The notes below the pieces were generated by a model. That model saw only the letters and a program-made list of their open reading frames with translations, was not told the DNA's origin and made no database searches. Below, piece after piece: positions 5,609 to 46,502 of a stretch of 64,000 nucleotides of DNA. The DNA is taken from contig JABYQN010000011.1 of assembly GCA_022606135.1 (NCBI GenBank), positions 744,001 through 808,000 on the forward strand. The letters are read 5' to 3'. Every line of letters begins with the position of its first letter. Position 1 is the stretch's first letter. The translations under genes were made by a program, and so were the position numbers. This DNA comes from Fomes fomentarius (lineage: Eukaryota; Basidiomycota; Agaricomycetes; Polyporales; Polyporaceae).

Positions 5609-7700
5609 ACGTATTTCGATATGTTCTCAGCAGCAGAGTCCTCTCGAAGACGAGATCTCGATTGATCGTGGCTGTCTCTCCTTCAGTCACGTGATCAAAT
5701 TGGCCAAACAAGAATCTCAGTGAGACAACATTGAGGAGGACCAGGACCTACATGGTCATCGCAGATTCGTGATCGAGAGGTAGGCGATGCGGTAGGGGTG
5801 CAAGCGCCATGCATGTGTCATGAAAGCTGTGCACAGGTAAGCCGATTGCAACAAGACAATGCGCGAAAAGCCTCCCTTCGCGCATGTCTTCCACCACAAA
5901 CCCTCACTGCCTGATCTGTCTCGCCTCCGTCTTGCCCTTCATCCATGCTACTCTAAGTTGCTCTGTCTACGCTCCGCTCTGATCTAGAGCTGGTATGGCG
6001 AGCCGTGCTGTGATCTCGTAATACCCCTGTTCGGGTCTGGCCACCAAACCACTGCGCCGTCGTGTTCCTTGAAACTGGCTCTCTGTGGAATCTGGGATGT
6101 GTATCAGATTTGATCCGGCTACTCGGCTTCAAATACCCTAGAAGGACTCACCATCGCTGCCACAGATGTCTGACTACTCCCGAGATGTCGCTACCCCTAT
6201 TGAGGCGGATGAGGGATGGATCAGCTGGTGTAAGTAGAGTAAACCAGGTGAGTGTTCACCGTCTTCCGAGTTCTCAAGCATATGCTGCCGGCCACCAACT
6301 AGCCTCCGCCGGATGGCCACCCGTGCTAGTCTAAGAGCTCCTACGGTGGTCACGGGCGAAAAGTGGCCTTAATCGGGCTCATATATCCTATATCCGGGTA
6401 CGCGTCGGGCTCGCGTCGCAAACAACTGCCCAACATCCTGTACTGCGAGCCATCGACTTGGCTTTCAGATTATGGTAGGTGGCTCACTCTTTGCTCCGGT
6501 TTCATACCGAGTTGTGGTTATGGTCGCTCTAGCCTAGAACCTGCATCTCAGCCTGAACCCTGGACGGCATCTGGATATCCATCCCTATCTGGTCTATCGG
6601 CTCTAGGAATCTCAGTCCAGCTATCAAACTCGAGGTACTCCGCGGCCACTCTCTGTGCTCATCACCTTCAGACGCGAGGCTTGAGGGTTCGCTCTGCACG
6701 TTCCACCAATCAAACCGGTGTTCTACGAATGCAGCATGTCAGCCGCTGGACATCGACAGCGAATCACAGGTGAGTACTTGCTTACGATCTTCCAGTTCAT
6801 TCGCGCCTCCTCACCGGCCTGATGGCGAGCTGGGCGTGTTAGTTCGATTCAGAATCATTGAGTGGTCGAAAGGGCTAGCCTCGTTCCAATGTCTCTCCAG
6901 CACCCCCTCGAACCTGCAAAGGCCCATGTAACAGTGACGCACGACGCAAATTAGAGGTGATCTAACTCACTGTCTGAAACCCCGGAGCCGAGGGGAGATA
7001 TCGCCGGCCATACATATAGTGATCCGGCGTGCGCCTTGCCTGCACGTGCTGGGTTCTCTTCCAAGGCCAGTGTCGCACCTGTACGTTGGAGTGATGTTGA
7101 CCCACCACTCGAGACCCTTACTGCACGCCCGTCGTATCCGATAGATCAAACGAGGTGGTGGTTGAGGGTACCGAGTGGCGTGACTGGCACGCTTAAGACA
7201 CTCGCGGATGTTGTGACATCTCCAGCGAATTATGGCGACTGGTGAATATGCAGGTCGTCAGATCGCTGGAGATGACACCTTACCAATCAGTCAAGCTGGG
7301 TTACCACGAAGACGTCTGTGTTGTCTCAAAACTGACTGTGAGGGAAACGCTCAGTCGTCAGGGTTGGGCAAGTGACTCACTCGAGATGCGATCTGAGTAT
7401 CACCGCGGCCTCTACTGCTTTCTCGACGCCATGAAAGTCTATATGTGCGCTCAGTCGTCGTGAGTGGGATGATGATGCAATGTACTGCTCAATCGTGTAG
7501 AGGATGAGGGATGTCTTGTCCAAGTGCATCCGTAAGCGGGACTTAGATGTCGGGTAGGCAGTATTGCCTCCTGCCGAGGACATCCCCACATCTCCACCGC
7601 ACCCACAAAGCACGTATAATTGTCAATCGCCTCTTGACGACGAGATTGAACACAGAGTTGGATGAAAGGAGCACTATGCTTCCCGAGTCATCTAACTCGT
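5609..7700 (+). repeat. dispersed non-coding repeat R2, left arm
   Basis: This block of about 2 kb is present inverted at 44.4-46.5 kb; for example, the block at 6355-6390 matches 45730-45765, and 5921-5990 matches 46118-46190. It is also a diverged relative of R1 at 10.6, 18.85 and 39-41.3 kb. The same succession of blocks recurs: a CACGTG hexamer (5688-5693), a pyrimidine-rich 'accacaaaccctcactgcctg' type segment near 5890, a GGTGAGTG(T/C)TCACC near-palindrome at about 6247, and a 'cggccaccaact' block near 6290. No reading frame stays open across copies. It precedes zinc-finger gene A, as R1a precedes B and R1b precedes C. Its end is uncertain. Confidence 0.65.
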
Positions 7701-7959
7701 CGTTGCGGAAAAACTCACATGAGGGTGTAGCTAGGGCCTTTCATCTCGCGAATCGATCCGAGCACATCATCTGCTAGGGTAGTGGTCCGCTGCTCCTCGA
7801 GCGATAGACTCTGGACGTCGATTCCAACCCGTTGATTTCGTCCAGCCCAGCAGCGGTCACTCACCAGATGCTCCTGACAGACAAATAGCATGCGCGCGAG
7901 CCCCTCACAAGTCTCTGGATCAGACTACAGGTCCTTATGGCAAGAAGGAAAGGTCGCGA

Positions 7960-8528
7960 AGATATAGGATGTGCAGGTCATCGAGTACGGGGTGGCTCAG
8001 ACGATGAGCGCGCTCCCGACAGCAGTGCTGGCAGCGACGCGCGCGATGTTCTGCGTGGAGGTCACGTGTGACGCGACGCGGATCAGCGTTTGGCCATCCG
8101 ATTCGATGGCCTCGCTCGAACTCTCTCAGCTCTCCTTCGTCTTCGTCCTCCTCGCTCTCGTCTGCCCTTCTGTTCACTGTACACTCTACTCGAACTCCAC
8201 GTTCTAGCAGGTCACCGTCGTCTTCGTCGGCATGGCTCTCAGCACGCATCCTCATATGCTACCGTGTCGCGGATCCGTCTCTATGGCTCTATCTGGGGAC
8301 CTAGCCTGGACACCCGCCCTTCTGCGCAAAGCAAGGTCCTTCCATGCTTCATACTGCTCATTGCTGTGGTCATGCACAATTGGCTGGGGATGCGGCACGA
8401 CAAGGGCAAAACAGACGAAAACAACGCGTCTATTTCACGGTCCGTAACGCGACTCGACGCAACCACAGAGCTTCAATTCACAACCACTCCTCCTTCCTCC
8501 CCTACACGACACTCCGCATAGTACACTC
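7960..8528 (+). promoter_or_regulatory. shared upstream module of zinc-finger gene A
   Basis: DNA upstream of A is homologous to that upstream of C and D. A distal block 'ggggtggctcagacgatgag' starts at 7989, and a proximal block 'acaacgcgtctat' holds ACGCGT at 8424-8429, 105 bp before the ATG. ACGCGT is the MluI cell-cycle box bound by MBF in yeasts; a role here is inference from conservation among paralogues. The mirror copy lies at about 43415-43960. Confidence 0.6.
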
Positions 8529-9584
8529 ATGCACACCTACCACCAATACTTCACTATCCCATTTGGTTTCGCTAGACGCGATTCGAGTGAAGACTACGGC
8601 GCCGAGAGCCAGGACCCTGTTGTCGAAGAGGCCGCTCGCTACGCATTCAATACACCCCGTTCATGCATGGGCTGGTTTCCCAACATTGACTTCTCGGGCC
8701 CTGCTGGTTCCGGAATCGTTCAAAATGGCGTCGCGCAGACTGGGTCCCCCTCTTTGGTTCTTGCAGACTCCGGGAACCCGTACCCACTCGAGCCACGGGC
8801 GTTCTCCTTCGGCGCCCAACAGCACTGGGGCCCGGACCGCGCATTTCAACATCCACTCAATGACGGAGCTCGGCCTTCTATCGCTCAAACGTCGACTTCC
8901 TTCGACTGGACGTCCGAGTATGGCCAACCACCGCCAGCCCAGACGTCTGATCCATTTGCTGCGATGGATGCTATGGCCGCCTACATGCAGCCCATGACAG
9001 ACGTTTCTAGCTTGGCTAGTGGAAGCTCTGTCCAACCAACGCACGCGGATGTCACCAGCACAGCGCTGACACAAGCCACACCAGAGATGCTCCAACCAGT
9101 TTTCAGCCATCTCGATGGCAGGGCTACACTCGAGAAGGACAAGGCTAAGCCCAAGGGCAAGGCTACACCCAAGGGCAAGGCTAAACCCAGAGGCAAGGCT
9201 AAATCCAAAGGCGATGCTCAAACTACATGGAAGGCTAAATCGAAGGGTGGCAAGGTTAGACCCGATCACCGGAAGTTCCCCTGCACATGGACTGGCTGCT
9301 CCGAAAGTGCGTATCCCGTCGTTCATGCCCTCCCCAGATGATGAGCTGACGGTGCGTATGATTTAACAGCGTTTACGAGAAAGTGCAACATGACAAGGCA
9401 CGTCAAGGTCATACATGAGAAGATCAGAGAGTTCCAGTGCGATAAATGCAAGCACGCGTTTGGCACAGAGAACGACTTGGCGAGACATGCCGGGGAGGCT
9501 AGTCGATTCAAAGGAGGGGTGCATGTATTCAGTAACTCTTGCCCGGGTGAGCCAAAGTGCGGGGAGCGCAATCAGACGGATTGA
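8529..9584 (+). CDS. C2H2 zinc-finger protein A
   Basis: This is a probable nuclear DNA-binding protein of about 330 residues; the target is unknown. Exon 1 is 8529-9306, the intron 9307-9369 (GTGCGT...CAG), and exon 2 9370-9584. The long N-terminus is Ser/Pro/Gln-rich and disordered-looking. It is followed by a basic Lys/Gly/Ala repeat (PKGKAT type, about 9145-9215) and then finger 1, which is made across the splice: FPCTWTGCSE joined to TFTRKCNMTRHVKVIHEK (C-x4-C-x12-H-x4-H). Finger 2, QCDKCKHAFGTENDLARH, lacks a normally spaced second His; a Cys-Pro follows 17 residues later. The 3' end could contain a further intron (GGTGAGCC near 9544). The mirror copy is A' at 42.3-43.4 kb. Confidence 0.85.
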
Positions 9585-10579
9585 AGAGTTCTCGGTACGT
9601 GCGCTCTCTCGACACTTGTGTGCTAAACGTGTCTTGCTAACGACGTCCTGGGGATGTGCAGACAGACAGACGCCCACGAGTCGCGTGCGCTACCAGTATA
9701 TCATCCCTCAAGCCGACCTCCCTCCTCGTGTGCTCAGCTCCGGAAGCTGGATACTCGATGTGGCCGCCGACTCTCGATGGAGAGATGTTCTACCGGTGAT
9801 GAACGAGGTTAGATGAGGTCATATCGTCGCTTGCATCGTCTATTGGGAGCCCGTCTCCGGGTCGGCCGGAGGGGTCTCCCCCTCGGCGATGTATGCGCAA
9901 AGAATGGGCTTGCCGTCATCTCTCTTTTATCACACTCCGTTATGACTATTTTCGTTACGTTGATAGATTACCTTGATTTCGTTCAACTTTGGATTTTGCG
10001 CAATTTGGATGTTAGACGCTGTGTTGTACTACTTGCCTTGACTCATGCCTACTCTCCACTACGATCTTGGAATCTCGCTGCGGTGTATGTTGCCGTATCA
10101 TGTATTGTTGCGTCATGTAGACCAAATTGTATCAAAGCCGTCTCATCTGCTCCAACTCGTTGCATCCGTCGCGAGGCTGTCAGGACTCTGTACATCTCGT
10201 ATGTCTCAGATGCGCTTACTTCTCTGCCACTCTCAACAATCTGTGAACATGGAACTGACCGCTCCATCCTCGCTCGTCGTGGACAAGGTCAATACGAAGT
10301 CCTATTACAGATCATCTTTGTGCGCCGCTTGGAGGAAGAATTTCACAGGGTGCTCCTACTCAGCGATCTGTTTGCTCCACCTGTTGATCGAACGTACAGG
10401 AGGAGAAGTGTCACTCGAGCCCCATGGCTGCCGCAAGTTGCATGCACGGGCATAAATGTATTCAGTGTCGCACGGCTACACCAAACGGCGTTGTGAATGC
10501 TGTATCGAGGAGTACGGCCGAGTAAAGCTTAAGTGTTTTACCGTGCATCGTAGTTCGAGTAAATGGAGAAAAACAGTGC
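9585..10579 (+). other. 3' flank of zinc-finger A
   Basis: No gene is supported. The flank is homologous to 22768-23150 downstream of C ('accggtgatgaacgag' and 'tattggga' blocks at about 9793-9850) and to the right-arm mirror at about 41320-42306. Long open frames here are not conserved as proteins. Confidence 0.55.
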
Positions 10580-12511
10580 CGATAGACCTCACTGAAGACA
10601 GAATGACCTAAAGCAGCTAGCTAATGACAGCCTCCAGCGCGACGCGTCGTCGGCTGTAGTAGTCACGTGACCGCGACACCGGACAAGACCCTCGAATCTC
10701 GATGACCGCGATAACAATTAGGAGTGCAATTGCCGCAGCAACGCAGCAACAAGTACTTGTTAGCGTGCAGTAGCCGGCGAGGTGAGAGCGGGCAAGCGAT
10801 CAGATTCAAAACAGAGACAAAGGGTGAAAGGAGAGACTCGCCTGCTGCATGTCATACACGCCTCTCATCCCACATTTCCTGACCACGAACCTCCACTCTG
10901 CCTGGCTTGTCTCCCTTCCGTCTGAGCCTTTGTCTTCCATGATGCGTCGTCGTATGCTTCTGTCTCGTCCACCAGATCTGGTGCTGCATGCCTCTGTAAC
11001 TCGTTGGGACTGCTGTTTTGATTCTGGATACCGCCACGCCGTCTTGTTCATGAATAGTGACTCTCCCTGACATTGGGCGCATCTTAGGAGCTTCGTCATA
11101 AAGACACTGAACTGTATTACCGTGGCTATGATGATTGTCTGTAACGTCCAACGTCCGACACTCTGAGCTTGGGTGCTCCCACTGGTCAACTTGCACCGCT
11201 TGACAATACCCCTCTGCGACCAACAGAGGGGATCAGCTGAGCCTATAACGAAGCAAGAACGGACGAGGTGAGTGCTCACCGCCCCGTATTTCCCCCCCTC
11301 CTCTGTCTCCCCGGCCGCCAACCTATCATGTCAAAGTTAGGTAGCTGTCGCTAGAGCACACCTCCGTATATCCTTGCGTGAGGAGCGCATGACGGCTTTC
11401 AGAGTCGTTGCTTCCTGCTTCCTCGAGATCGGTCGCTCTCGTGGCATTTTTGCCATCTATCGCAGGTAGCAGTACTGCCTCAGCAGTGTGAAGGGCTCTG
11501 GGCTATGCAATCACTCACTCTGGGTCGACACTCGCTGTCCGTGAGGCGCGAGCGTTGTAGCTCTAAGGGGACCAATGATGATCTCTTTGGGTGCCATCGA
11601 CTGAAATGACAATCTAGCTACGAGATTCGATAACGGACTGCAGGTGAGTACGCACCACATGTTCTCAATGGAGAAATTGCGTGTAAGGCCCGCGTCGTCA
11701 GCGCCGGGGTGATACAGAGAGGAGGTATTCCATCCTATCAATAGTGTACGGATGAACAGCCAGTGCAGAGTCGTCGCGATGGGCCTGACATAACTTAGAG
11801 TTGGATCTATAGCCGCATCAACAAACGTGCACGGCGCGGTAGCATCATGGGAATCCGTTCGTACCTTTGCTGCTTCGCGTACATATTGACTTCAAGTCCA
11901 GAACTCGAGCTCTAGCCAGCCATGAGGGAATCACGGAACTCTGGTGAATGAGATCTATACTTATCTCTACCTATGCTGTCCACTCCGCAGCTTCTCGCAG
12001 TCGCGCGCTTTGAGCGCAGTGTGGATCCCTGCGCAGCGTGTCAGACAGATTAGCTCAATAACGAGGGTGCGAGAAGACCCGAATATTGAACCACGCGATA
12101 TAGGGCGCAGGGGTTTGAGTATCGATGGCACCCCGCCAGGGATCTAGTCAGGAAAAGGCTGGCTTTGGCCGAACCCACTCCATCGTTCTCGAGGATAGTA
12201 CTCGCAGCTGGGCATGTGAAACGAGGCTCTGGCAGTGTAGAGCTCGACCACAGGCATAGTCATGCATGAACTACTGAAAGGTGGTTATGAGGGAACCGTT
12301 CATGGGTCAGAGTTCTCCGAAGCGACTCACTAAGAGGTCGTGATAGGGTTTCGAGATTCTCTACCACTTGCTTCTACTCAGTGACAGACATCAATGAAGA
12401 TGTATGATTAGTCCGGGTCGGGGGGCAGAAGATAATTTCACGACGACTTGTGTGGAGGATGGATGCGGGGCGTTATATTGTTGGTCAGTCGTTGAGAGAA
12501 CTTGAAGTCGC
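10580..12511 (+). repeat. dispersed non-coding repeat R1a
   Basis: A repeat of about 1.9 kb that recurs at 18848-20926 (same strand) and at about 39030-41330 (inverted). Conserved markers in order are ACGCGT (10642-10647), CACGTG (10664-10669), 'gatcagattcaaaacagaga' near 10799, 'accacgaacctccactctgc' near 10881, a GGTGAGTGCTCACC near-palindrome near 11268, and a terminal 'gttatattgttggtc' block near 12470. All three reading frames are broken in every copy. No target-site duplication or terminal inverted repeat was found by eye. It precedes zinc-finger B. Confidence 0.75.
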
Positions 12512-12533
12512 GATAGTATCCCTGCCTGGCCGT

Positions 12534-13163: not shown

Positions 13164-13280
13164 AAGCAGCCATCCCGCAGCCGCCAGCGCCCGAGTAATC
13201 GGATGATCAAGCTTCCTCGCCCTCACTGCATCTATCTACATATACCCCAACCTTCCGTCTCTGTCCTCCTTGCGATCACC

Positions 13281-14345
13281 ATGTCTTTCTATCCCTATGA
13301 CTCTGAGAGCTCCGTCTTCTATGCTGACTTGGAGAGCCCCCTCGTCGACGAGGCTTTTGCGACCGGCCTCGCAGGCGAGGGGAGCTCCTTCGCCTTCGAT
13401 ACCGACATCGACGCGATCGACACGTTTTCGGTCTACTCGAGCTCCGCCGAGGTTATCGACTGGACTTGCTTGAGCAATCCCTACCCTTCTGCGCTCTCCG
13501 CGTACTCCGACACACCTTCGAGCGTGGACACCGCCCCACCTCCGTTATCACCTCTATCCGACCATACTCTAGTCGGCTCCCCTTCCCTATGGAACGACTT
13601 CAAGATCTTCGACGAGGAGGAGGAGTTGGACCTCAGCTTCATTGATGCAGCACTAAGTCCTTCAACTGACTTCGCCTTTACGTTCGAGTATCATGCCCCA
13701 GCGGTAATGTCCCCCTTCCCGCCTGAGCTTCCGTTAGAGCTCGTCGACATCGGCTGTGAGCAGCCGACACCGCAGCAGAACGAGGTCGTCGCTGCGAGTG
13801 CATCTGTTCATGGCCTTGCTGCCCGGGGTGTGGAAGTGAATGCGGCCCGGTTCGCGTTCACTTCCACGACCCCGACGTCGCCACTTTCCCCTCTAGCCTC
13901 AGCCTCGCCCGTGGTCGTCGAGCCCATGGAGAAACTGAAGGTAGTGAAGAGGATCAGGACCAAGGCCGACCCCGAGGCCCCGTCGCAGCAGGCATCGCCG
14001 ACCAAGCGTCCTCGTCGTCAGGACACGACGCCGAAGTATCCGTGCCCCGAATGCAACGCCAGTAAGTACTCGTTCTGTTTCCGCCCCAATACGCAGTGCA
14101 TATAATGGACGAAACGTTGATGTCTCCGCTCTCGTTGTCCAGGCTTCGCCCGTACGCACAACCTGAAAGTACACGTCAGCTCCGTGCACAAGGGAGAACG
14201 CCCCAACAGCTGCACGCACCCCGGCTGCGACCGCAATTTCAGTCGCAAACACGACTTGATGCGCCATCAGCAGTCCAAGCACACCGACCTGGGGTCGCCG
14301 CGTCGCAAGGTGAAGACCGAGGGTGTGCACGGACCCGAGGAGTGA
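13281..14345 (+). CDS. C2H2 zinc-finger protein B
   Basis: This is a probable transcription factor of about 327 residues. The start is ATG 13281 (MSFYPYDSESSVFYADLE), the position conserved in B'; the frame stays open further upstream but is not conserved. Exon 1 is 13281-14061, the intron 14062-14142 (GTAAGT...CCAG), and exon 2 14143-14345. The N-terminal 220 residues are acidic and Ser/Pro/Thr-rich, as in activation regions. A basic stretch (VVKRIRTKADP, PTKRPRRQ) resembles a nuclear localisation signal. Two canonical fingers follow: CPECNASFARTHNLKVH-x4-H, and CTHPGCDRNFSRKHDLMRH-x4-H (C-x4-C), with a short basic tail. No frame breaks are seen. The next gene downstream is GT2. Confidence 0.9.
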
Positions 14346-15110
14346 ACGACCAACGTCGTGATTCCCAGTACGTCATTTCTGCCCTGTCTCCCCCATAAAG
14401 CATGTGTGCCGCCCAGTTCGCCTTCGGTCGCTTGCTTGTCGAACGAATATCGATACTGACGCACCACTGTGCAGGAATCGCGCGCTCTAGTCTTATGATA
14501 TCTCTCGAGTTGGGCGCCCCCACGGAAAAGACCCGCCGGCGTGCCGGTCTTGTCCTTTTGGCGTTCGACTCTCGACGAGAGATGTCATATGGCTCGTTCA
14601 CGAGAGGAGGTCAAAATGCGCGTGTGTCAGTGAGTGGGGCGCGGGTCCCTTGGCGTTCGGTGTTGGGTGGGCTCACGACCGTGTCCACCGATCCCGGGTA
14701 GTGCTTTGGGGCTCGCGCCCGTCGCAGATGCACGCGCGTGGTCGAGGGATATGTTGGTTTGTTTTGTGTCATCTGCGTCTCTGTGTCTTGTGTTAGATAC
14801 GTTCGTGTGCTGCTGTTGGATCGTCTCTGGGTCCGGTATTGGAAAAGGCTCGCACTTCGTTCTGTACGATTACGTCGCATTTTCGTATGCTCTCTGTCCA
14901 TTAGACTGCTTGCTTGTCTCTCTTTCCCTCCGCTTGTCCCCGCTGCTTGTCTGTGTGCAATAGTGTCTCTACGATCTGGTGTTCTATCGACGCAGTGCGC
15001 TCGCTTGTACACTATCGCCACCACCTTCCTGACTCCTACTGTGCTGCGTCACTTTGCTCTTGATGATACAAATGTGCTCCATCTCCTTTATTGATGTCTT
15101 GTGTGTTGCC
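14346..15110 (+). other. 3' flank of B, nearly identical to that of B'
   Basis: No gene. This probable 3' UTR and downstream DNA match 54780-55449 (inverted) more closely than the N-terminal coding parts of B and B' match each other. A GC-rich hairpin-like sequence lies near 14527-14550. Confidence 0.55.
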
Positions 15111-15175
15111 CGCCACCTCTCTTGGAGTTTGACAGTTGTTTGACAGTCGGCTTACCCGAACCACCATGTTCTCAC

Positions 15176-15603
15176 TATGGTGCCGGGCGCCTAGTCACCG
15201 CTTCAATTGTACAGTGGCAAAATCAGCGGCGGGTTCGGGCGCCTATACGAATGAACGAGAGCTTCCCTTCATAATGATCAAAGGTTGCTAGGTGGATGTG
15301 TACCAGCATCTCTGTACCATTTTTAAGACATCATCTGGGTTGTAGCAAGGAATACAACAGTCTCCGCCGAGTCCTTCTGGCGCTTGTTACGGCGCCTATA
15401 CTCCATATACGGAAATTGGCAAAATCGAGAAATCCCATCTCGGTCATTTTTGGGGTTTTTGACAAACGGTTTGACAGTTTGATTCCCGTAATAAAACGGA
15501 GTAGTTTGGTCAAGTTTTTAAGGACAATGACAAAAAATGCGCCACTGGTAGCCGCAGAGGTTGGTTGTACAAACGTAGCGGTGACTAGGCGCCCCGCACC
15601 ATA
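15176..15603. mobile_element. MITE with about 33-bp terminal inverted repeats and TA target duplication
   Basis: The element is 15178-15601 (424 bp). Left end TGGTGCCGGGCGCCTAGTCA pairs with the right end (15569-15601), which reads inward as TGGTGCGGGGCGCCTAGTCA; both continue through CCGCT to TTGTACA. TA dinucleotides flank it at 15176-15177 and 15602-15603, as expected for Tc1/mariner-type non-autonomous elements. The homologous locus near 53785-53800 lacks the element, giving an empty site. It encodes nothing recognisable. Confidence 0.8.
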
Positions 15604-16341
15604 CGTTGCAATATCGAGGATGTATGCTGTGTTTTCAAGCACTGTGGTACCCGCTTGAGCTTGGTACAACTTGACGCGCTCCGACATGTAGCCTTCACAG
15701 CCTCAGTAGACTCGACTGTGTGTCAATCACCCAAAAACAGTACTAGTACTTACGTCAACCCCACAAAGCCGCCCATTTTCTGATTGCTCACATACGTATA
15801 CAAGTTGGACAAGGCCGCCATCCCATGCACACATCCTAGCGCGTACCAGTTGAACAGCCCGCATCCTGAGCTTCCCCGACATCGGATTCAAGGAGAGCTG
15901 ATCAAGCAACACGACTTGAGCTGAGAGGGCGGGATAATGCGCATGACGCGGTGGGAACGATCTACGAGAGTGGCTTGCATAAGCTGCGAGGTGAGGGCAT
16001 TCTATCCTTTGATATCAGACGTCGTGTGCGAGTGGAATTTGACAATGTCATGCTGATTACCATCGCTCAGGCGTTACAGGACAATGTGTTGGCCCTGGAA
16101 GTGGATGTTTGGCATACCACCCCGTGTGCTACAGTCAGCGGCGACCTTTGTGCTCGGAGCTATGTCGACGTGGATTCGGGAAGCTCATGGTTAGACGGCG
16201 GAGAACCAGGAGCGTGAGCGCGCATAGTGTGGGATATAAGAAGAGCGTCGGCGTATGTTCTTCCACCAGAACTCCCGCGTTCGTTCACTCACCAGTCACA
16301 GCACCGTCACTACGCCTAAGCAGGAGGGATTTCGTACTGTA
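15604..16341 (+). other. GT2 upstream region, homologous to 53058-53790
   Basis: The region matches the reverse strand upstream of GT3 block by block, for example 'gctgatcaagcaac' near 15896 and 'gcatgacgcggtgggaacg' near 15941. Open frames are not kept between copies. It may be a remnant of an older gene, or simply promoter DNA. Confidence 0.5.
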
Positions 16342-27836: not shown

Positions 27837-27961
27837 TACTTTGGAGACCGGCCGGTACCAAAATGTCGGAATGTCTCAAAAGTATGAATAGCTGGGTGTT
27901 TGAACAAGAGAAGAACATGCGGTAGCGATACCCGCCTTGTATGATTCTGTGCAAGGCCGAT

Positions 27962-36220: not shown

Positions 36221-37196
36221 ACCTGAAATATATGCTGTACCAGCTGTGAGTATTTCTGTTTTGGCTTGAGTTGGCTGCACTGAGCGCAGTAGTGAGTCTG
36301 CGGTACTACCGAAACCATACAATATGGCATAATCGCAACAGGGTTGAGCCATGGACGTCTGAACGTCTGAAGATTCAGGACATTTTACATGCTACTAAAC
36401 AGGCTTGCAATATCTCTTTGCACACTCAATAATATGGTTCTCTGATCGACAATGCTGTTGTTTCTTTCATATCGTCTACTGTCCTGGCTTCCCCTCAGGC
36501 ACCAACTTGAACAGTGTGTGCCCTCATGCCTTTGTACAAGTCAGATAGCGGTCTGGTTCCAGAAAGCGACTTCTCTGAGATGAGCCAATCACTTGCCGAT
36601 ACTCGTGCCCTCGGTTGAGGAACTAGTGTTGACCAAGCAATCGTAAACTGACGTGCGATACTCAAGTATGTATATATGTACAACGACGGCGCGGATACAC
36701 GTTCTAGTAACAAGTAACAGCAACATAGCTTCATATAAACGTAACTAACAGAACACAACATGTAAATCTTCAAAGCGAGGGAGGACAAGTGATGGACGAG
36801 AGCAGTGCACGGGATGTGATCATATACATAACAAAACATGCCGAACGAGAAACGGAACCGATACGAGTAAAAGTCATGCAGAATGCAGTCGAACAATACG
36901 GTACGAAGCCTAGATACGCGCATACATCACCCACAGGGAACCCGACCGGCAGACAGGGTCCCAATAGATGATGCATACGATCTCGTTCATCACCGGTATA
37001 TCACCCCTCAGCGTAAGTCAACGGCCATAGAGGGTGATCAGCTATTACGGCTGAACACTCGAGAAAGGCGATCGACTTGAGAGGTAATATAGTGGTGGTG
37101 CACGCGACCAGTAAAGGCCTACAACGACAGAATCATAGGTCAGGGAGCAAAGAGATAGGACCACAGCTTGCTCACCGATCACCGAAGGAGACATTT
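36221..37196 (-). repeat. right-arm DNA between D' and C'
   Basis: Near-identical inverted copy of the left-arm DNA between C and D (about 22768-23740). Open frames match between arms only because the DNA matches. Confidence 0.6.
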
Positions 37197-38045
37197 CTAC
37201 TCCAAGTTGTGGGTGTCGTCGCTGTCGGATTCTTCGACGTCCTCGGACGTGCTGTTGGACTCAACCGCAGACTGAGACCTTCCGTATTGACGGGCAGAAC
37301 CGAGGTGCGTGTGGAAGGACATGAAATGGTTACGAAGATCCCTCTTGCGCGTGAAGCCCTGGCACATGTAGGGGCATATGTAAGGGCGATAGTCCAGGTG
37401 CTGTCCCCAGACATGCTCCTTCACATTGTCCCTCTTCTTGGATCCTGTGCAGCGTTTAGCGGTAGAATACCAGTATTCTCCATTCAAGGGTTGAGCCCAC
37501 TCACCCTTGTAGCTGCACGTCTGCAGCAAACACCGATACACCGCCTCCACGCACCGGAGCGGGAGGTCGTGCGGGTCTAGCGAGGGGTCGTCGATGAGCT
37601 GGAGTTTCTTGCGTTTGTAGACCGCGCCGTGCTTCCCGTCCACGTTGGGGAAGTGGGGACCTTCCCACATCTCCGCCATCGTCGGAAGACGCTCACGGGG
37701 GCGTCGTGTCTGGGACGGCTTGATCTTTGGAGATGCGGAGTCTCGGGTGGCAGAAGAGGGCCGAGTAGACGGACCTGTGCCATCCGACAACGGCGTCGTA
37801 GCGGCCGACGACCATGGGGACCCGTGGTCAGCGACTGTTACGGGACCGATATCAGACGGATGTTCCAAGGAGGTTCTCCATTGAACATCAGCAATGACGT
37901 CTGGAGTACTGACGACCTCCTTAAACATCCTAACGAAGTTCTCGTCGATCCTCACGCCGTTAAATGTGGCTGGAGAACCGCGACCGTCTCCGGGACAATA
38001 GCCAGCAGCGCCGACGGGGGTAGATGGTGGAAGGAAGGGGTACAT
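37197..38045 (-). CDS. C2H2 zinc-finger protein C' (mirror of C)
   Basis: Start 38045 (MYPFLPPSTPVGAAGYCPGD). It has the same architecture as C: an exon 1 ending CLLQTCSYK, a 60-bp intron near 37446-37505, finger 1 ending DNVKEH-x4-H, and finger 2 CPYMCQGFTRKRDLRNH-x4-H. By eye the proteins are about 95% identical, with differences clustered in the first 15 residues and the tail. A CAG-to-TAG change (37199-37197) ends C' six residues before C; both fingers are intact, so it is probably functional. Confidence 0.82.
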   Translation of the reverse strand: MYPFLPPSTPVGAAGYCPGDGRGSPATFNGVRIDENFVRMFKEVVSTPDVIADVQWRTSLEHPSDIGPVTVADHGSPWSSAATTPLSDGTGPSTRPSSATRDSASPKIKPSQTRRPRERLPTMAEMWEGPHFPNVDGKHGAVYKRKKLQLIDDPSLDPHDLPLRCVEAVYRCLLQTCSYKGEWAQPLNGEYWYSTAKRCTGSKKRDNVKEHVWGQHLDYRPYICPYMCQGFTRKRDLRNHFMSFHTHLGSARQYGRSQSAVESNSTSEDVEESDSDDTHNLE

Positions 38046-38640
38046 GGTAGTGATATACGCACTATAGTGTTTGCTACGCGCAGGTGGGGATGGGGGAACA
38101 GTGCAAGGTTGTGAGTGTGTTCTGTGGTCGAGTCCGAGTCGCTTGAAATAGTAGACGCGTTGTTATCGCCTGTTGTGCCCTTCTCGTGCCGCGACCTGAA
38201 CCTTACTGCGCACAGCCGTATACCATGCGATCCGAGGAAGAGCCTGGCTTTGCAGCAGAGAGTGGCCATTGCCTACGCCTATAGTCAGTCTGCGCATCGA
38301 GCGAGCGTGTCGCGGTTGGCCGCGATGCGCAACGGTCGAGAAAATGGGTACCAAGAGTAATGTCGCAGCGAGCTCAGAGGGGCCGTCTGCCAGAGATGCC
38401 GAAACAGCGAGCGAAAGTCAAGGGAGCGAGCGAGAGAACCGACGTTCAAAGTTCAAGAAGAAATTGAAAACATATCTGACCTGATCTGGCGTCGAACCTG
38501 AGGCGCATCGGGCTCTAGGGAAAACTCTGATCCTCGCGTCATACGCATCTCCGAGCTGCCCAGTGCTGGGCCTGCTGGCAACTTATGCTGCTGACGCCCT
38601 CATCGTCTGACCCACTCCGACAATGTACAGTGAGATACGC
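38046..38640 (-). promoter_or_regulatory. shared upstream module of C'
   Basis: Mirror of 21300-21900. ACGCGT is at 38155-38160, 110 bp before the ATG, with the distal 'cctcatcgtctgacccac' block near 38597. Confidence 0.55.
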
Positions 38641-39029
38641 CGACCTTCTCATCCTGTCTTGAAAACCTCTGCGTTTCAATTAGCAAGCTTGAAGGAGCTG
38701 GCACGCGTGTGCGTCGACCAACCACGGGATCTGGTGATTCCACAACCTGGACACTACACACTCCCGGATATGCGCGAGATTTGAAGATGGATATGTGTGA
38801 GCTTGAACAGAGGCGTGGAAAGCGGTTCAGGCATGTCATACACTCGTGAGCTGCACTCTCATAGATACTCGCTCTAGGATGGGTTACGAGGTGTGCGCGC
38901 ATGTGCCTATCCGATCCTTCCTGCCCTTCAACTGCAACAGGGAACACGCTCGCTCCAGGCATATCCAACGGCGAGCAAAGAAGGGTGCCTTTGCGGTGTG
39001 CATTTAGCTCTGATCTTGGCAGGCAGGGA

Positions 39030-41330
39030 TATATCCCGACTTCAAGTTACCTCAACGACCTGCGTCCGTTGTCCACACAACCCGTTGCCAAATCATCTTC
39101 TGCCTCCTGACCGGGACTAGTCATACATCGTCTTTGATGTCTGTCAGGTGGAAGAAGCAGGCGGTAGAGAACTCATCTCAGAACCCTATTACGACCTCAA
39201 GGTGAGTCACTTCGGGGGACTCTGACTCATAAACGGTTTCCTCATACCCGCCTTTCAGAGAATCCTGCATGGCTATGCTTGTGGTCGAACTCTACACTGC
39301 CAGTGCCTCGTTCCACGCGCCCAGCAGCGAGTGCTGCCCTCGAGAACGATGGAGTGGGCTTTTGAGCTCAAAGGTAGCTATCGCATTCATCTCTGAAACC
39401 GCAAATGGTTCAGCAGATTCGGCCATAGCTAGCTTTTTGCTAATCAGATTCCTGGCGATGTACCAGTCATACTGAAACCCCTGCGCCCTATATCGCGTGG
39501 TCAAATATTCGAGTGGTCTCGTTATTGAGCTATTCTATCCGACACGCTGCGCAGGGATTCGCACTGCGCTCACACCGCGTGACTGCGAGAAGCTGCGGAG
39601 TGGACAGCGTATGCAGAGAGAGGTAGAGATCGATCCCTCTGGGGCAACCTCGTGTGCCAGTACAGATCCCACTCACCAGAGTTCCGCGGTTCCCTCATCG
39701 CTGGCTCGACTCGGAGTCAATACACGAAGCAGAGAAGGTACGAACGGTCCCCCACGAAACTACCGCGCCATGCACGTTTGCTCACGGGGCTGATCCAGCT
39801 CTAGATCGAAGTCAATCTCCACGAAGCCAAGACAGGCCCTCTGCACCGGCTATTCGTCAGTACAATGCTGATAGGATGGTATGCCCCCTCTCTGTATCAC
39901 CCCCGACGCTAACGACGTGCTTTTTCTAAGGGAGAGCGCGCTTTCAAGTTTCAGGTGATATTGAAAGGGGGTCTGCGCGCGGATTAACCCACTCTCCCAG
40001 CCCAAAATGTCCGATCGCACCCGCAATTCACCTCGAGCAACTTCGTTGAGAGCAGCTATGCGCGATGCGATTTCGACCTCCCATCCACGCGGATCCAAGG
40101 GCTGCACTCGTCGCCAGTCCGGTCGTGGTACGAGACCGATGGTCGAATACGCGCACATATGGCGCGCACTCACCTGCAGTTCGTGATTGAATCTCGCGGC
40201 TCATGCGCTCGATTGTCAGGACTCAGCATGGGAGCATCTAAGGGGATCCTATCCAACGATGGTCTCCTAGAGCTACCAGTCTCGTGCCTCGCGGACGGCC
40301 GCTGTCAACCCACAGTGAGTGATCACATAGCCGAGAGCTCTTCGGACTGTTGAGGTAACGCTGCTACGCGCGATAGATCATAGTCGCGAGAGCTCGAGGA
40401 AGCAACGCTAGCTTCGTATCTGACAGTCGATCCGCAGTTCCAAAGGTATCAGAAGGCGGTCTGCGGCACGCGTTCCAAGCAAGACAGAAGCACTAACAAA
40501 CGCTACTCTGAAATCAAACCCACCATGCGCTCCTCACGCAAGGATATATGGAAGTGCGCTCTAGCGATGGCCAGCCGATAGCTCGGTGGCCAGGGACACA
40601 GAGAAGGGGATGTCGAGTCATACATGGTAGGTGAGCACTCACCTCGTCCGTTTCTGCTTCGTTACAGGCGCAGCTGATCCGCTCTGTTGCTCGCAGAGGG
40701 GCATCGTCGAGCGGCACAAGTCAGTGGGAGCACCCGAGCTCGAGCTGTTGGACGACGGTTATCATAGCCTCGGTAAGTCAGTCTAGTGTCTTTGGGACGA
40801 AGCCCCTAAGATGATGCTCCTAATGCCGGGGAGAGCCACTTCGCAAGAATAAGACGGTGTGGCGGCATCCAGAATCGACAGCGGTTCCAACGAGTTACAG
40901 AGGCATGCAGCTCCAGATCTGGTGGACGAGACAGAAGCATACAAAGACGCAGCATGGGGACCAAGGCTTAGACGGAAGGGAGACAGGCCAGGCAGAGTGG
41001 AGGTTCGTGGTCAGGAAATGTGGGATGAGAGGCGTGTGCATGGCAGCAGGCGAGTCTCTCCTTTCACCCTTTGTCTCTGTTTTGAATCTGATCGCTTGCC
41101 CGCGCACACCTCGCCGGCTACTGCACGCTGACAAGTACTGTACTTGTTGCTGCGTTGCTGCGGCAATTGCACTCCTAATTGTTATCGCGGTCATCAAGAT
41201 TCGAGGGGTCTTGTTGGTGTCGCGGTCATGTGACTACTGTCGACCATCGACCGACGACGCGTCGCGCTGCAGGCTGTCACTGGCTGCTCTAGGTCATTGT
41301 GTCTTAGTTAGGTCTATCGGTACTGTTCTT
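39030..41330 (-). repeat. R1c, mosaic inverted copy of R1
   Basis: Inverted R1. Its upstream end (near 41330, next to A') continues into DNA like that before R1a, and its downstream end (near 39030, next to C') into DNA like that after R1b. Internal signature words alternate: 'cccctctgcg' and 'cccacatttcctg' as in R1a, 'attcttgcgaagtggctctc' as in R1b. ACGCGT is at 41257-41262. Nothing codes. Confidence 0.7.
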
Positions 41331-42306
41331 CTCCATGCACTTGCACTGCGACCCACAGTGGAACACTTAACTTAAGCTTTACTCAGCCGCACTCCTTGAT
41401 ACAGCATTCACAATGCGGTTTGGTGTAGCAGTGGGACACTCACTACATTAATCAACTAGCAAAACGTATGTCCGTGCGTGCAATCTAGAAGTTTGCCGCG
41501 GCGCTGGTAGAGTTCCGGTGACACTTCTCTTACTGCATATTGAATAAGCGTAGGCAGATGACCGAGTAGGAGGACTCAGTGCAATTCTTGACCACGACGA
41601 GCGAGGATGGAACGGTTAGTTTCATGTTCACGACTTGGAGAGAAGTGGCCTAGAAGTGAGTGCGTCCGCTAGTGGGACATATGAGATATGCAGGTTAGAC
41701 CGTTGCGAGGCCGGTAGAATTCAGTGTATTCGCGACGAGTTGGAGCAGATGAGAGGGCATTGATACAATTCAATCCATATGAAGCAACGATACATGATAC
41801 GCCAACATACACCACGGTGAGATTCTAAGATCGTACTGGAGAACAGGCATGAGTCGAGGCAAGTAGTACAACACAGCGTACAATATCCGAACTGTGCAAT
41901 TAGAACGAAATCAAGGTAATCTGTGAACGTAACGAAGATAGTCATAACGGAGTGTGTGGTAAAAGAGGGACGACGGTAAGTCCATTCTTTGCACATACAT
42001 CGCCGAGGGGGAGACCCCTCCGGCCGACCCGGAGACGGTCTCCCAATAGACGATGCACGCGACGATATAACCTCATCTAACCTCGTTCATCACCGGTAGA
42101 ACATCTCTCCATCGAGAGTCGGCGGCCACATCGAACGATCAGCTTCCGGAGCTGAGCACGCGAGGAGGGCAGTCGGCTTGAGGGATGATATACTGGTAGC
42201 GCACGCGACTCGTGGGCGTCTGTCTGTCTGCACATCCCCAGGACATGTCGTTAGCAAGACACGTTTGGCACCCAAGTGTCGAGAGAGCGCACGTACCGAG
42301 AGCTCT
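41331..42306 (-). other. 3' flank of A'
   Basis: Mirror of 9585-10579. No gene supported. Confidence 0.55.
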
Positions 42307-43414
42307 TCAATCCGCCTGATTGCGGACCTCGCCCTTGGGCTCACCCGGGCAAGTACTGATGTATACACGCCGCCCATATTTGCGTGGTCGAGATGATATG
42401 CCGAGGTGTCTGTTCAATTGGCATTTTTGCCCAAACGACTCCTTGCACTGGTCGCACTGGTACGGTCTGATCTTCTCATGTACGGTCTGAACGTGCCTTT
42501 CCATGTTGGATTTGCTGCCAAACGCTGATATATATATCATAGGCACTGTCAGCTCATCATCTGGGGAGGGCATGAACGACGGGATACGCACTTGCGGAGC
42601 AGCCAGTCCATGTGCAGGGGAACTTCCCATGATCGGATTTAGCCTTGCCACCCTTGGATTTAGTCGTCCATGTAGGTTGAGCATCGCCTTTGGATTGAAC
42701 CTTGCCTCTGGATTTAGCCTTGCCCTTGGGTGTAGCCTTGCCCTTGGGTGTAGCCTTGCCCTTGGGTGTAGCCTTGCCCTTGGGTGTAGCCTTGCCCTTG
42801 GGCTTAGCCTTGTCCTTCTCGAGTGTAGCCCTGCCATCGAGATGGCTGAAAACTGGTTGGAGCATCTCTGGTGTGGCTTGTGTCAGCGCTGTGCTGGTGA
42901 CATCCGCGTGCGTTGGTTGGACAGAGCTTCCACTAGCCAAGCTAGAAACGTCTGTCATGGGCTGCATGTAGGCGGCCATAGCATCCACCGCAGCAAATGG
43001 ATCAGACGTCTGGGCTGGCGGTGGTTGGCCATACTCGGACGTCCAGTCGAAGGAAGTCGACGTTTGAGCGATAGAAGGCCAAGCTCCGTCATTGAGTGGA
43101 AGTTGAAATGCGCGGTCCGGGCCCCAGTGCTGTTGGGCGCCGAAGGAGAACGCCCGTGGCTCGAGTGGGTACGGGTTCCCTGAGTCTGCAAGAGCGAAAG
43201 AGGGGGGCGCGACGCCATTTTGAACAATTCCGGAGCCAGCAGGGCCCAAGAAGTCAATGTCGGGAGACCAGCCCATGCATGAACGGGGGGTATTGAATGC
43301 GTAGCGAGCGGCCTCTTCGACAACAGGGTCCTGGCTCTCTGCGCCGTAGTCTTCCCTCGGATCGCGTCTAGCGAAACCAAATGGGATAGTAGAGTATTGG
43401 TGGTAGGTGTGCAT
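42307..43414 (-). CDS. C2H2 zinc-finger protein A' (mirror of A)
   Basis: Exon 1 is 43414-42592, the intron 42591-42525 (GTGCGT...ATCAG), and exon 2 42524-42307. The N-terminus is close to A. The basic repeat is expanded, with about four extra-regular KGKATP units against one to two in A. Finger 1: FPCTWTGCSA spliced to TFGSKSNMERHVQTVHEK. Finger 2: QCDQCKESFGQKCQLNRH, again without a normal second His and followed by Cys-Pro after 18 residues. The final Cys of A (PGEPKC) is Gly in A'. Finger residues at DNA-contacting positions differ from A (TRKCNMTRH against GSKSNMERH), so the two may read different sites. No frame break. Confidence 0.85.
42712..42815 (-). repeat. 18-bp coding minisatellite in A'
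   Basis: A near-perfect tandem of 'ccttgcccttgggtgtag' units on the + strand (four complete, with degenerate edges), encoding PKGKAT repeats. The same position in A holds one regular unit and degenerate neighbours. Confidence 0.85.
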
Positions 43415-43990
43415 AAGTGTACTATGCGGGGTGTCGTGTAGGGGAGGAGGAGGAGTGGTTGTGAATGAAGCTCTGTGGTTGCATCGAGTCGCGTTACGGA
43501 CCGTGAAATAGACGCGTTGTTTTCGTCTGTTTTGCCCTTGTCGTGCCGCATCCCCGGCCTATTGTGCATGACCACAGCAATGAGCAGTATGAAGCATAGG
43601 AGGACCTTGCTTTGCGCAGAAGGGTGGGTGTCCAGGCTAGGTCCGATAGAACCATAGAGACGCGTCGACGCGGTAGCATATGAGGATGCATGCTGAGAGC
43701 CATGCTGACGAAGACGACGGTGACCTGCTAGAACGTAAAGCGCGAGTAGAGTGTACAGCGAGCAGAAGGGCAGACGAGAGTGAGGAGGACGAAGACGAAG
43801 GAGAGCTGAGAGAGTTCGAGCGCGGCCATCGAATCGGATGGCCAAACGCTGATCCGCATCGCGTGACACGTGCCCTCCACGCAGAACATCGCGCGCGTCG
43901 CTGCCAGCACTGCTGTCGGGAGCGCGCTCATCGTCTGAGCCACCCCGTACTCAATGACCTACACATCCTATATCTTCGCGACCTTTCCTT
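43415..43990 (-). promoter_or_regulatory. shared upstream module of A'
   Basis: Mirror of 7960-8528. ACGCGT is at 43512-43517, about 100 bp before the ATG; the distal 'ctcatcgtctgagccacccc' block is near 43928. Confidence 0.55.
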
Positions 43991-44379
43991 CTTGCCATCA
44001 GGACCTGTAGTCTGGTCCAGAGACTTGTGAGGGGCTCGCGCGCATGGGATTTGTCTGTCAGGAGCATCTGGTGAGTAACCACTGTTGGGCTGGACGAAAT
44101 CAGCGGGTGAAATCGACGTCCAGAGTCTATCGCTCGAGGAGCAGCAGACCACTACCCTAGCAGATGATGTGCTCGGTCGATTCGCGAGATGAAAGGCCCC
44201 AGGTGCACCCTCATGTGAGTCTTTCCGCAACGATGAGTTTAATAACTCGGGAAGCATAGTGCTCCTTTCGTCCAACTCCGTGTTCAATCTCGTCGTCAAG
44301 AGGCAAATTTTACATACTGTGCAGGTGCAATGGTGATTTGGGGCTGTCCTCGACAGGGTGCGATACTGTCTACTAGACA

Positions 44380-46495
44380 TATCTGAGTCCCGCCTATGGA
44401 TAGGCCGTGGTGCTCCTCAAACTCGCATCTCGAGTGAGTCACTTGCCCAACTATGACGGCGATCGTTCAGCTCACAGTCAGTGCATTGAGACCACACAGA
44501 TGCGTGATTACACCACTTGACTGATGTTTATTCGTCCCTTGTAGAGTGCTATCTCTAGCGATCTGACGACCTGAATGGTGATCAGTGGCCATAACTCGGT
44601 GGAGATGTTCCATCATCCGCGAGTGTCTGCAAGTGTCCCGGTCGCGCCACTCGGTACCCTCTACCACCAGTTCGTTCGATCTATCGATACGACGGGCGTG
44701 CGGCAAGGGTAGCCCGAGTCGTGGGCCAACATCACTGCAACGTACAGGTGCGACTCGGGCCTTGGGAGAGAGACAACCAGCACGATTCATGTTCATGAGT
44801 TCGATGTGGTTAGATCCACATTACGAAATCGAACGCCCGCATGAAATCAGTAGATCTCTCCACGAAGAGTACACGGATCTGTGAAGGCTGGCAAAAACGT
44901 CACGACCTTTGCAGACTCGGTGCTCCGTCGAGGAGGCCTGTGCTCATCGGCTCAGGTATCCGTGGGAGGAGGATGGGTCGTGCAGCGACGCGCACGCGTG
45001 ATCACTGTACGGCTGGTGATATCTCCCCTCGGCCCCGTTCTCAGACAGTGAGTTTGCTCTTTGCGTCCTGCATCATTGTTGATCGGCTTTTGCATGTCCG
45101 AGTGGGTGCTAGGAAGACATTGGAACAAGGCTGGCGACCGTTCAAACCACTCACCCAGATTCCAAGTCAAACTAAACAGGATCAGAGTTGGGGCAGTAGA
45201 CCCGGCCCAGCTCAGCGTCAGGCCGGCAGAGGCGCGAATGATCTGGAAGAGGGTAAGTAACACACCTGTAGATCGCTGTCGTTGTCCTGCGGCTGACATA
45301 CCGCGTTCGTAGAACACGGTGTTGAGTGGTGGAACGTGCAGAGCGGACCCCCAAGCCTCGCGTCTGACGGCGATGAGCACAGAGAGTGACTGCGGAATAA
45401 ATCGAGTGTGATAGCTGGGCTGAGTACCCCGAGTTTGATAGGTAGGGTGAGATTTCTAGAGCCGATAGACCAGATAAAGAGATACTATCAGGAGAGGACG
45501 CAGCGGTGCCGTCGTGTCACTGATGCGATATGGTAAGTATCCAGATGCCGTCGTCGTGCTCAGACTGAGGTCTGGGTTCTAGGCTAGAGCAACCATAACC
45601 ACAACTCGGAATGAAATCCGAGCACAGAGTGAGCCACCTACCACAGTCTAGCCAAGTCGGTGGTTCGCAGTACAGGATGTTGGATGGTGGTGGTTTACGA
45701 CGCGAGCCCGACGCGTACCCGGACATAGGAGATATGAGCCCGATTAAGGCCACTTTTCGCCCGTGACCACCGTAGGAGCTCTTAGACTAGCACCGGTGGC
45801 CATCCGGCGGAGGCTAGTTGGTGGCCGGCAGCATATGCTTGAACGGTGAGCACTCACCTGGTTTACTCTATCTATACCCAGCTAATCCATCACTCACTCG
45901 CCTCGATAGGGGTAGGGACATCTCGGGCAGTAGTCTCGAAGGGAGGACGTCTGTGGTACCATGGTGAGTTCCTCAAGGGGGTGTTTCAAGCCGAGTAGCC
46001 GGATCAGATCTGATACATATCCACAGAGAGCCACTTCTGAGGAACACGACGGCACAGTGGTTTGGTGGCCAGACCCGAACAGGGGTATTACGAGATCACA
46101 GCAGGGCTCGCCTCATGAGCTCTAGATCAGACCGGAGCGCAGATAGAGCAACTGAGAGTAGCATGGATGAAGGGCAAGACGGAGGCGGGACAGGTCAGGC
46201 AGTGAGGGTTTGTGGTGGAAGACATCTCGTGGGACGCGCGAAGGGCGGGCAGTTGGTCAAATCCCTTTTCGCGCTTTGTCTTGTTGCAATCGGCTTACCT
46301 GTGCACAGCTTTCATGACGCACGTATGGCGCTTGCACCCCTGCTACCGCGTCGCCTGCGATGACCATGTAGAGCCTCCTAATTGTTGTCTCACTTGAGAG
46401 CAAATTCGATCATGTGACCGAAGGAGAGACAACCACGATCAATTGAGATCTTGTCATCGAGACGACTCTGCCTGCTGAGATCACATACGTGCACC
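44380..46495 (-). repeat. R2', inverted copy of R2
   Basis: Right-arm counterpart of 5609-7700, with several small indels. The homology stops at 46495 ('gtgcac'), a few bases before the glycosyltransferase remnant. Confidence 0.65.
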
Positions 46496-46502
46496 CAGCA
46501 AA

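Follow-up and report, generated by a model that had tools for sequence, protein, structure and literature searches.

Candidate gene conversion between the arms of an inverted C2H2 zinc-finger gene cluster in Fomes fomentarius, with an island of divergence in one finger exon

Converted duplicates and their divergence peaks

In the human red/green opsin pair, the duplicates are homogenised by conversion, introns included, and a sharp divergence peak stands over exon 5, the exon that sets specificity, an arrangement treated in the model of Teshima and Innan (PMC3924837). The GOT1 enzyme paralogues of Tigriopus, a pair for which population data exist, likewise keep divergence islands under ongoing conversion (PMC3728101). 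Gene-bearing inverted arms exchange sequence in the gene-conversion palindromes of sex chromosomes (PMC7023750, PMC6790999), and in the het-d/het-e NWD family of Podospora, concerted evolution is combined with diversification of a recognition surface through the exchange of WD repeats, both inside single genes and among the 10 genes of the family (PMC1805685).

The locus of Fomes fomentarius analysed here shares a feature with each of these systems and departs from each. Unlike in the opsin pair, the copies are inverted, the peak lies on an exon that encodes zinc fingers, any difference in function is putative and an exchange with a third locus is possible; unlike GOT1, it is a putative DNA-binding cluster in one fungal genome. 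As in gene-conversion palindromes, the inverted arms carry near-identical tracts across non-coding DNA, but they are not near-identical throughout around a short spacer, being mostly ~85% alike (background 83–86%) and separated by 8.8 kb. Instead of WD repeats shared within a family, unique two-finger exons are involved, and the apparent tracts are gene-sized and run between the arms. By analogy, the locus would belong with the known converted duplicates that have a divergence peak, and its peak may likewise be a selected one. No homeodomain, pheromone/receptor or NLR/WD gene was found among the 10 reading frames given to Pfam, in a window (the whole 64-kb stretch of DNA analysed) with 121 open reading frames of at least 100 aa. 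Among the open-access literature matches listed, no title or abstract opening mentions this locus or a cluster of this kind from Polyporales, and the term "C2H2" does not occur in the main text of a Fomes co-expression paper.

Architecture and genes of the inverted cluster

An earlier note on this DNA had described an inverted duplication about 41 kb across with genes in mirror order. Block pairing by BLAST confirmed the duplication and enlarged it: paired blocks lie between ~890 and 56634, inside a 2.3-Mb contig, with E′, E and F in the added extent. The inverted partners match over many kilobases at 71–89% (BLAST), which excludes chance, and the E-values of the long ones print as 0 in genome searches. 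Positions 25580 and 34364 are exact block ends, the ATGs of gene C (21901 and 38045) and gene A (8529 and 43414) are starts of open reading frames, and those of gene D (24353 and 35586) were confirmed by direct reading; paired positions sum to 59939–59946 in the inner part and to 51943 (A) and 52108 (R2) in the outer part. Genes A, C, D and F point toward the axis in both arms, in agreement with the note.

Outward from the axis, the left arm, on the forward strand, reads D-C-x-E-F-x′-A-R2-E′: gene D (24353–25207), gene C (21901–22767), block x (18847–21514; 84.5% to the right arm), block E (15604–18748; 86.1% to the right arm, without sharp patches), block F (13166–15086), the second x copy, x′ (10452–12528), gene A (8529–9584), block R2 (5604–7046) and the outermost block E′ (890–3167), which is 88.7% identical to E in direct orientation (16341–18627) and 84.5% to E″ in inverted orientation. 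The right arm, on the reverse strand, reads D-C-x″-A-R2-(E fragment)-E″-F: gene D (starting at 35586, with two 1-base gaps in C runs relative to the left copy), gene C (37197–38045), x″ (38439–41452), block A (41587–44401, with gene A at 43414–42307), R2 (44979–46495, the partner of left R2; 86.4% over 5604–7733 in a global alignment), a fragment of block E adjoining it (46502–46735), E″ (50668–53785, the partner of E) and block F (54713–56634). The 8-kb difference that the note placed between C and A is real as an offset, and it is no simple insertion, because blocks E, F and the second x copy sit between C and A on the left, whereas E and F lie outside A on the right. Since x and E are also tandemly duplicated on the left, the duplication comprised more than one event. 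Shared sites among the E copies support all three groupings (23, 20 and 8), and no single branching order emerged for the x and E copies. In genome searches, x and R2 were not dispersed repeats, the matches of R2 being confined to this locus except at its E-derived end; no Rfam family reached its gathering score in the 64-kb window. The arms have no tight palindrome centre and are separated by a spacer of 8783 bp (25581–34363), which contains two more C2H2 reading frames on the forward strand (fingers at 28599–28664 and 31031–31099) and the coiled-coil gene G on the reverse strand (33157–33846), and at its two edges lie short stretches related to G that are ~72% alike (BLAST).

Gene A is a two-finger C2H2 gene, deposited as C8Q74DRAFT_214172 on the left (355 aa; the deposited start lies further upstream) and as C8Q74DRAFT_215598 on the right (353 aa). 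The exon-2 reading frame of the right copy scores 25.4 bits against zf-C2H2 (PF00096; gathering score 25.2), and the precomputed domains are PF00096 for the right copy and PF21816 only for the left. The right copy of the zinc-finger gene F, identified by its sequence as C8Q74DRAFT_215911, carries a precomputed PF00096; the left copy begins with an ATG at 13281. Genes C (288 aa on the left; no Pfam match among the 10 reading frames) and D (zf-C2H2_4 score 15, cut-off 27) are putative C2H2 members, judged by eye from their Cys/His spacing. The 20 fingers that a PF00096 search of the genome returned include none from this cluster, whose fingers probably score too low, and the search gives no family count. 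A putative transcription-factor role is suggested only by the fold of the encoded proteins. Genes A, C and D have in common a 27-bp leader motif, with sites at 8407–8433 (left gene A), 21769 and 24183 on the forward strand and at 35731, 38151 and 43508 on the reverse strand, and 7 occurrences genome-wide.

Mosaic identity and the divergent exon of gene A

The arms had been thought almost identical from the axis to gene C, non-coding DNA included, and less alike outward. The first part stands, with 97.2% across C and D and their intergenic DNA; the second does not, since identity forms a mosaic, running outward from 97.2% (C and D) through 84.5% (x), 95.8% (A), 86.4% (R2) and 86.1% (E) to 95.3% in F, which is outermost on the right. 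The background of 83–86% is seen in x, E, R2 and the start of F (83.0% over 13166–13701), and three sharp patches of high identity, non-coding DNA included, stand out from it: 21516–25580, paired with 34364–38438 on the reverse strand (C and D); 7734–9350 (gene A: exon 1, the DNA upstream of it and most of the intron); and 13702–15086 (F).

The reading that we favour, with a probability of about 0.7, is an old inverted and tandem amplification followed by arm-to-arm conversion, with exon 2 of gene A most likely kept apart by selection. In this reading, segmental duplication, inverted as well as tandem, would have multiplied a cluster of small two-finger C2H2 genes at an early date. Later, ectopic gene conversion from arm to arm would have patched the three stretches centred on zinc-finger genes, together with their non-coding flanks, leaving x, E, R2 and the start of F at the older divergence. 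In gene A, the tracts would end on either flank of most of exon 2, an exon that was most likely kept apart because the A proteins of the two arms recognise different DNA sites and selection removed converted recombinants.

This exon, coding from ~9370 on the left, carries the DNA-contacting helices of both fingers. Most of it falls in an island at 9351–9537 that is only 66.3% identical to 42547–42354 of the right arm, between stretches of 95.8% and 93.5% (the latter at 9538–9984); 63 of its 187 positions are mismatched, compared with 96 of 2045 in the flanks (p = 1.3e-30). In exon 2, dS is 0.49 and dN 0.38, compared with 0.05 and 0.04 in exon 1. Because dN/dS is 0.77 in both exons, the rates do not by themselves show positive selection, and exon 2 could instead be a chance unconverted relict or have been too diverged to convert.

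Alternatively, another zinc-finger locus may have exchanged sequence with part of the left exon, which would make the island an import and not a protected relict, with arm conversion standing elsewhere; we consider this a serious possibility, though improbable on present evidence. In favour of an import, the island exceeds the non-coding background in divergence (p = 8.8e-11). A fragment at C9:1457879-1457954 is 78% identical to the left exon 2 over 76 bp; only 2 of the first 36 bp, which correspond to finger 2, differ, and the right arm aligns poorly over this part. The fragment reads CKWHAFGAENDLARH where the left A protein has CKHAFGTENDLARH (tblastn E 1.1e-5 within a 3-kb locus), and the right A protein has no comparable match in that locus (best E 0.33). 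However, the fragment matches finger 2 of the left exon only, no donor was found for finger 1 and the tail, and C9 may be the recipient rather than the donor. Protein searches with both exons returned no closer intact gene among the matches listed, the next relatives being C4:894885 (38% to the left and 44% to the right copy; query residues 1–49) and C1:2654188 (39% to the right copy), and the right-arm exon 2 has no DNA match in the genome other than the left arm. By plain comparison of the counts, the synonymous divergence of the exon (15.2 of 42.2 sites) also lies near the value for the unconverted coding part of F (27.5 of 93.7). Because exchange with another locus may account for part of the left exon, selection on exon 2 is proposed with moderate to weak confidence.

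Origin of the high-identity patches

Gene conversion as the agent of homogenisation is strongly suggested by patches with abrupt borders and low dS, by the homogenisation of non-coding DNA and by phylogenetic incongruence within gene F; this part of the earlier note is thus well supported, without its qualifier "palindrome-driven", as ordinary ectopic conversion between nearby homologues would suffice. Change-point analysis gave log-likelihood gains of 173.2 across x, C and D (at most 7.2 in 200 shuffles), 34.3 in F (8.6 in shuffles) and 18.1 across A-R2 (6.5 in shuffles), a modest break in x′ (17.8, against 12.1) and no accepted break in E (6.9, against 6.7). In gene F, the comparison was made with protein P0006, an independent F protein, likely from a relative. 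At the 31 sites of the first part where the arms differ, P0006 agrees with the left copy at 24, with the right at 2 and with neither at 5; at the 11 such sites of the second part, the counts are 5, 5 and 1 (Fisher p = 0.010), a pattern consistent with an old duplication and later ectopic gene conversion. In gene C, the arms are 94.3% alike, but each is only 80.4–81.9% identical to protein P0002, which may come from a different organism than P0006.

The note had also offered stepwise growth, in which segments of different age were added and the C-D pair is a recent duplication near the axis. C and D are indeed the most alike block, which runs up to the end of the arm, and more than one duplication is attested by the tandem x and E copies of the left arm. 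The inner border of this patch is structural, because it falls at the arm end and the left sequence beyond it resembles a spacer copy more than it does the right arm. As a cause of the identity differences, however, stepwise growth is unlikely: young patches recur far out, in A and in the outermost right F, with older colinear sequence alongside; the C-D patch meets colinear x without a gap at 21514/38439; and the first and second parts of a single gene, F, relate differently to P0006.

The conversion reading draws on a single genome assembly, and the arms could in principle be two haplotypes joined head to head. This is very improbable given ~15% divergence outside the patches, different block orders, extra tandem copies, the spacer and the position of both arms inside one 2.3-Mb contig; moreover, the 40 kb on either side of the window have only a repeat family in common (~64–78%) and no long inverted match of near-identity, and the left F is closer to P0006 than to the right F. 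Slower evolution of gene regions under purifying selection after a single arm duplication would place the patches on genes, where they are, but it scarcely deserves credence, being contradicted by synonymous, intronic and intergenic sites that are equally homogenised: dS between the arms is 0.031 in C and 0.052 in exon 1 of A, compared with 0.373 in the unconverted codons 1–140 of F; the C-D intergenic windows are 96.2–99.6% identical; the non-coding DNA of gene A is 95.1% identical on the 5′ side, 93.8% in the intron and 95.7% on the 3′ side; and the zinc-finger exon of A is its least alike part. Least credible of all is that the low-identity blocks were driven apart by RIP-like mutation of the kind that affects repeats in some fungi (PMC1805685), as these blocks have no transition excess, with ts/tv of 1.40 in both x and C-D and CpG-context shares of transitions of 28% and 20%, respectively.

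Under the favoured reading of old amplification and later conversion, arm identity at this locus is no clock for the age of the duplication. If selection on exon 2 were confirmed, the locus would offer a fungal case of conversion and selection opposing each other within one gene and a handle on how putative DNA-binding proteins acquire new targets; since the two A proteins differ mainly in exon 2, comparing their binding sites would come close to a natural exon-swap test. More speculatively, and with considerable doubt, the inverted cluster may act as a device that diversifies DNA-binding specificity, in which arm-to-arm conversion maintains the likeness of upstream region, leader and protein scaffold in paired regulators while the finger exon is shielded by selection or refreshed with pieces from other finger loci, such as the C9 fragment; the leader motif common to A, C and D would hold the set under joint control. 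One regulatory input would then lead to two different DNA-reading outputs.

Arrangement of the inverted duplication

The window (C11:744001-808000) belongs to a 24-contig genome of 40.9 Mb, probably that of CIRM-BRFM 1821, one sequenced French isolate named in the literature (PMC8876124). Deposited Fomes fomentarius proteins correspond to three from the window: C8Q74DRAFT_214172, C8Q74DRAFT_215598, and C8Q74DRAFT_215911. Self-comparison of the window identified the blocks R2, A, x, C+D, E, and F as inverted pairs, bearing out the inverted duplication with zinc-finger genes described in the earlier note, and the left arm also carries direct copies (E′/E and x′/x). The order outward from the axis is D-C-x-E-F-x′-A-R2-E′ on the left and D-C-x″-A-R2-(E fragment, 46502-46735)-E″-F on the right. 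The 8-kb offset previously noted between the arms is present and is accounted for by the extra E-F-x′ segment of the left arm. Informative sites among the E copies, which bear on whether inverted or tandem duplication came first, divide 23, 20, and 8. Blocks x and R2 are confined to the locus, except for one short match on contig C5 and E-derived matches.

The spacer (25581-34363) contains two further C2H2 reading frames, one coiled-coil gene, and a dispersed element roughly 350 bp long (29209-29569), which recurs at 70-96% identity on C8, C2, C4, and C5 and is matched in part on C5, C14, and C6. A DUF6535 protein gene (47389-48807, minus strand; E = 7.6e-45) lies in the right arm between the R2/E fragment and E″, and the window self-comparison revealed no left-arm counterpart. 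In the left arm, a MITE-like repeat of about 430 bp (15176-15603; inverted ends of about 38 bp) separates F from E and has nine other genome matches, one of them shorter; by eye, the right-arm E″-F interval is unlike this left-arm interval. Outside the window, both flanks carry another repeat family, whose members share mostly 64-78% identity and occur in either orientation. A second inverted and tandem duplication was found at C20:130001-160000 (tandem 75-97%, inverted 73-91%), with F-like stretches that contain many stops and are oriented toward its axis.

Mosaic identity and probable conversion between the arms

The earlier note described arms that become less alike outward; segmentation of the aligned sites (borders on the left arm) instead revealed a mosaic of patches. 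From the axis outward, identity to the right arm is 97.2% in C+D (21516-25580), 84.5% in x (18847-21514), 86.1% in E, where no break was accepted, 95.3% in most of F (13702-15086), and 83.0% in its first part (13166-13701); x′/x″ comprises two segments (89.7 and 78.9%). Around gene A, the values are 79.0% (9985-10287), 93.5% (9538-9984), 66.3% in an island within the gene (9351-9537), and 95.8% (7734-9350), followed by 86.4% in the R2 segment (5604-7733). In each of the five blocks, the best change point surpassed anything obtained in 200 site shuffles, barely for E (gain 6.9 vs. 6.7) and modestly for x′ (17.8 vs. 12.1); since site shuffling takes no account of natural rate variation, the case for a mosaic stands on C+D, A, and F.

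High identity extends to non-coding DNA, with 96.2-99.6% in the intergenic windows of the C+D patch and 95.1, 93.8, and 95.7% in the 5′ side, intron, and 3′ side of gene A. Gene C has dS 0.031 and dN 0.027 between the arms, and dS in F is 0.373 (dN 0.119) in codons 1-140, outside the patch, vs. 0.140 in exon 1 beyond codon 140. In codons 1-140 (133 columns), an F protein from another source, P0006, is closer to left F (88.0%) than left F is to right F (76.7%; right to P0006, 71.4%), and in codons 141-255 (112 columns) all are equidistant (left-right 90.2%, each to P0006 91.1%). At arm-differing sites, excluding gapped columns, positions beyond codon 255, and sites matching neither arm (5 and 1, respectively), P0006 agrees with left and right at 24:2 in the first part vs. 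5:5 in the second (p = 0.010). For gene C, identity is 94.3% between the arms and 80.4-81.9% from either arm to the protein P0002, which equals the left at 10 and the right at 6 of 16 scored arm-differing sites. A third copy of D and part of C at C18:172-180 kb is about equally distant from both arms (D: left-right 97.5%, left-C18 89.7%, right-C18 88.9%). Together, these data argue strongly for ectopic conversion between the arms, and the earlier proposal of gene conversion was right in kind.

Besides D and the 3′ part of C, the C18 copy (172202-179572) includes the coiled-coil gene G; BLAST identity to both arms is mostly 81-87%, and the 80 kb examined contain no inverted partner. Right D differs from left D by two 1-base gaps, both within C runs; these could be genuine breaks or errors in the reads. 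No RIP-like bias was found among the arm differences, and ts/tv is 1.40 in x and in C+D alike.

Relatives and a shared leader motif

A search with the F protein, in which the 7995 candidates with the most shared words were scored, identified 19 proteins at E <= 0.001, one being the genome's own right copy; the others include proteins of the polypores Daedaleopsis, Lentinus, Ganoderma, Dichomitus, and Trametes. Apart from the right copy in the window itself, the search with C retrieved one protein, and nothing beyond the proteins of the two arms came up with A; the method requires shared 5-residue words and similar length and can thus miss distant relatives. The cluster proteins might regulate transcription.

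The A, C, and D proteins hardly align outside the fingers. Their genes share a 27-bp motif (8407, 21769, and 24183, plus strand; 35731, 38151, and 43508, minus strand) that begins 122, 132, and 170 bp, respectively, before the left-arm start codons used. Allowing <=3 mismatches, the genome contains seven occurrences: six precede the A, C, and D genes of the two arms and one precedes D on C18. The reversed pattern has none. The motif may function as promoter or leader RNA; the deposited A proteins treat it as coding. It includes ACGCGT, the core sequence of the MBF site (MluI cell-cycle box) in fungi. Several hundred bases upstream, A and D also share another short conserved stretch (91%; 7977-8020/23746-23789).

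A divergent zinc-finger exon in gene A

The two copies of gene A, whose splicing is confirmed by deposited proteins, are nearly identical to the end of the intron and again beyond a difference-dense block, which covers most of exon 2, the exon that carries the finger 1 helix and the whole of finger 2. Mismatches number 63/187 in this island vs. 96/2045 in its flanks (p = 1.3e-30) and 1074/7479 in x, E, and R2 combined (p = 8.8e-11). Between the arms, dS and dN are 0.490 and 0.378 in exon 2 (70 codons) vs. 0.052 and 0.040 in exon 1 (256 codons); dN/dS is 0.77 in both exons, and hence there is no rate signature of positive selection. What the values show is that exon 2 took no part in the homogenization. 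An 18-bp tandem repeat in exon 1 (9135-9247/42700-42817) has 4.3 vs. 6.6 copies, and at this repeat the open frame as read is 18 aa longer than the right protein on deposit.

One result tells against simple retention of old divergence in exon 2: part of the left exon might have been exchanged with another locus, which we consider the less likely alternative. A fragment at C9:1457879-1457954 matches the left exon (59/76 identical, 8 gapped columns), with 2 differing positions in the first 36 bp (CKWHAFGAENDLARH on C9 vs. CKHAFGTENDLARH in left A), so that a left-type half of finger 2 is present at a second locus; the right exon has no comparable match there, but the C9 match spans only part of the island. 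Among the matches listed in protein searches with both exons, no intact gene was closer to either: the nearest, C4:894885, has 38% identity to the left and 44% to the right exon (query residues 1-49), and C1:2654188 has 39% to the right. For right-exon DNA, the left arm is the sole match in the genome.

The island resembles, as a pattern, the divergence retained by selection in the homogenized human opsin duplicates, according to part of a review (PMC3924837), and the divergence islands described for GOT1 (PMC3728101). The unconverted zinc-finger exon, absent from the earlier note, is the most interesting element of the locus. It may reflect selection against conversion, and on one reading it is an old divergence kept by selection for different DNA targets.
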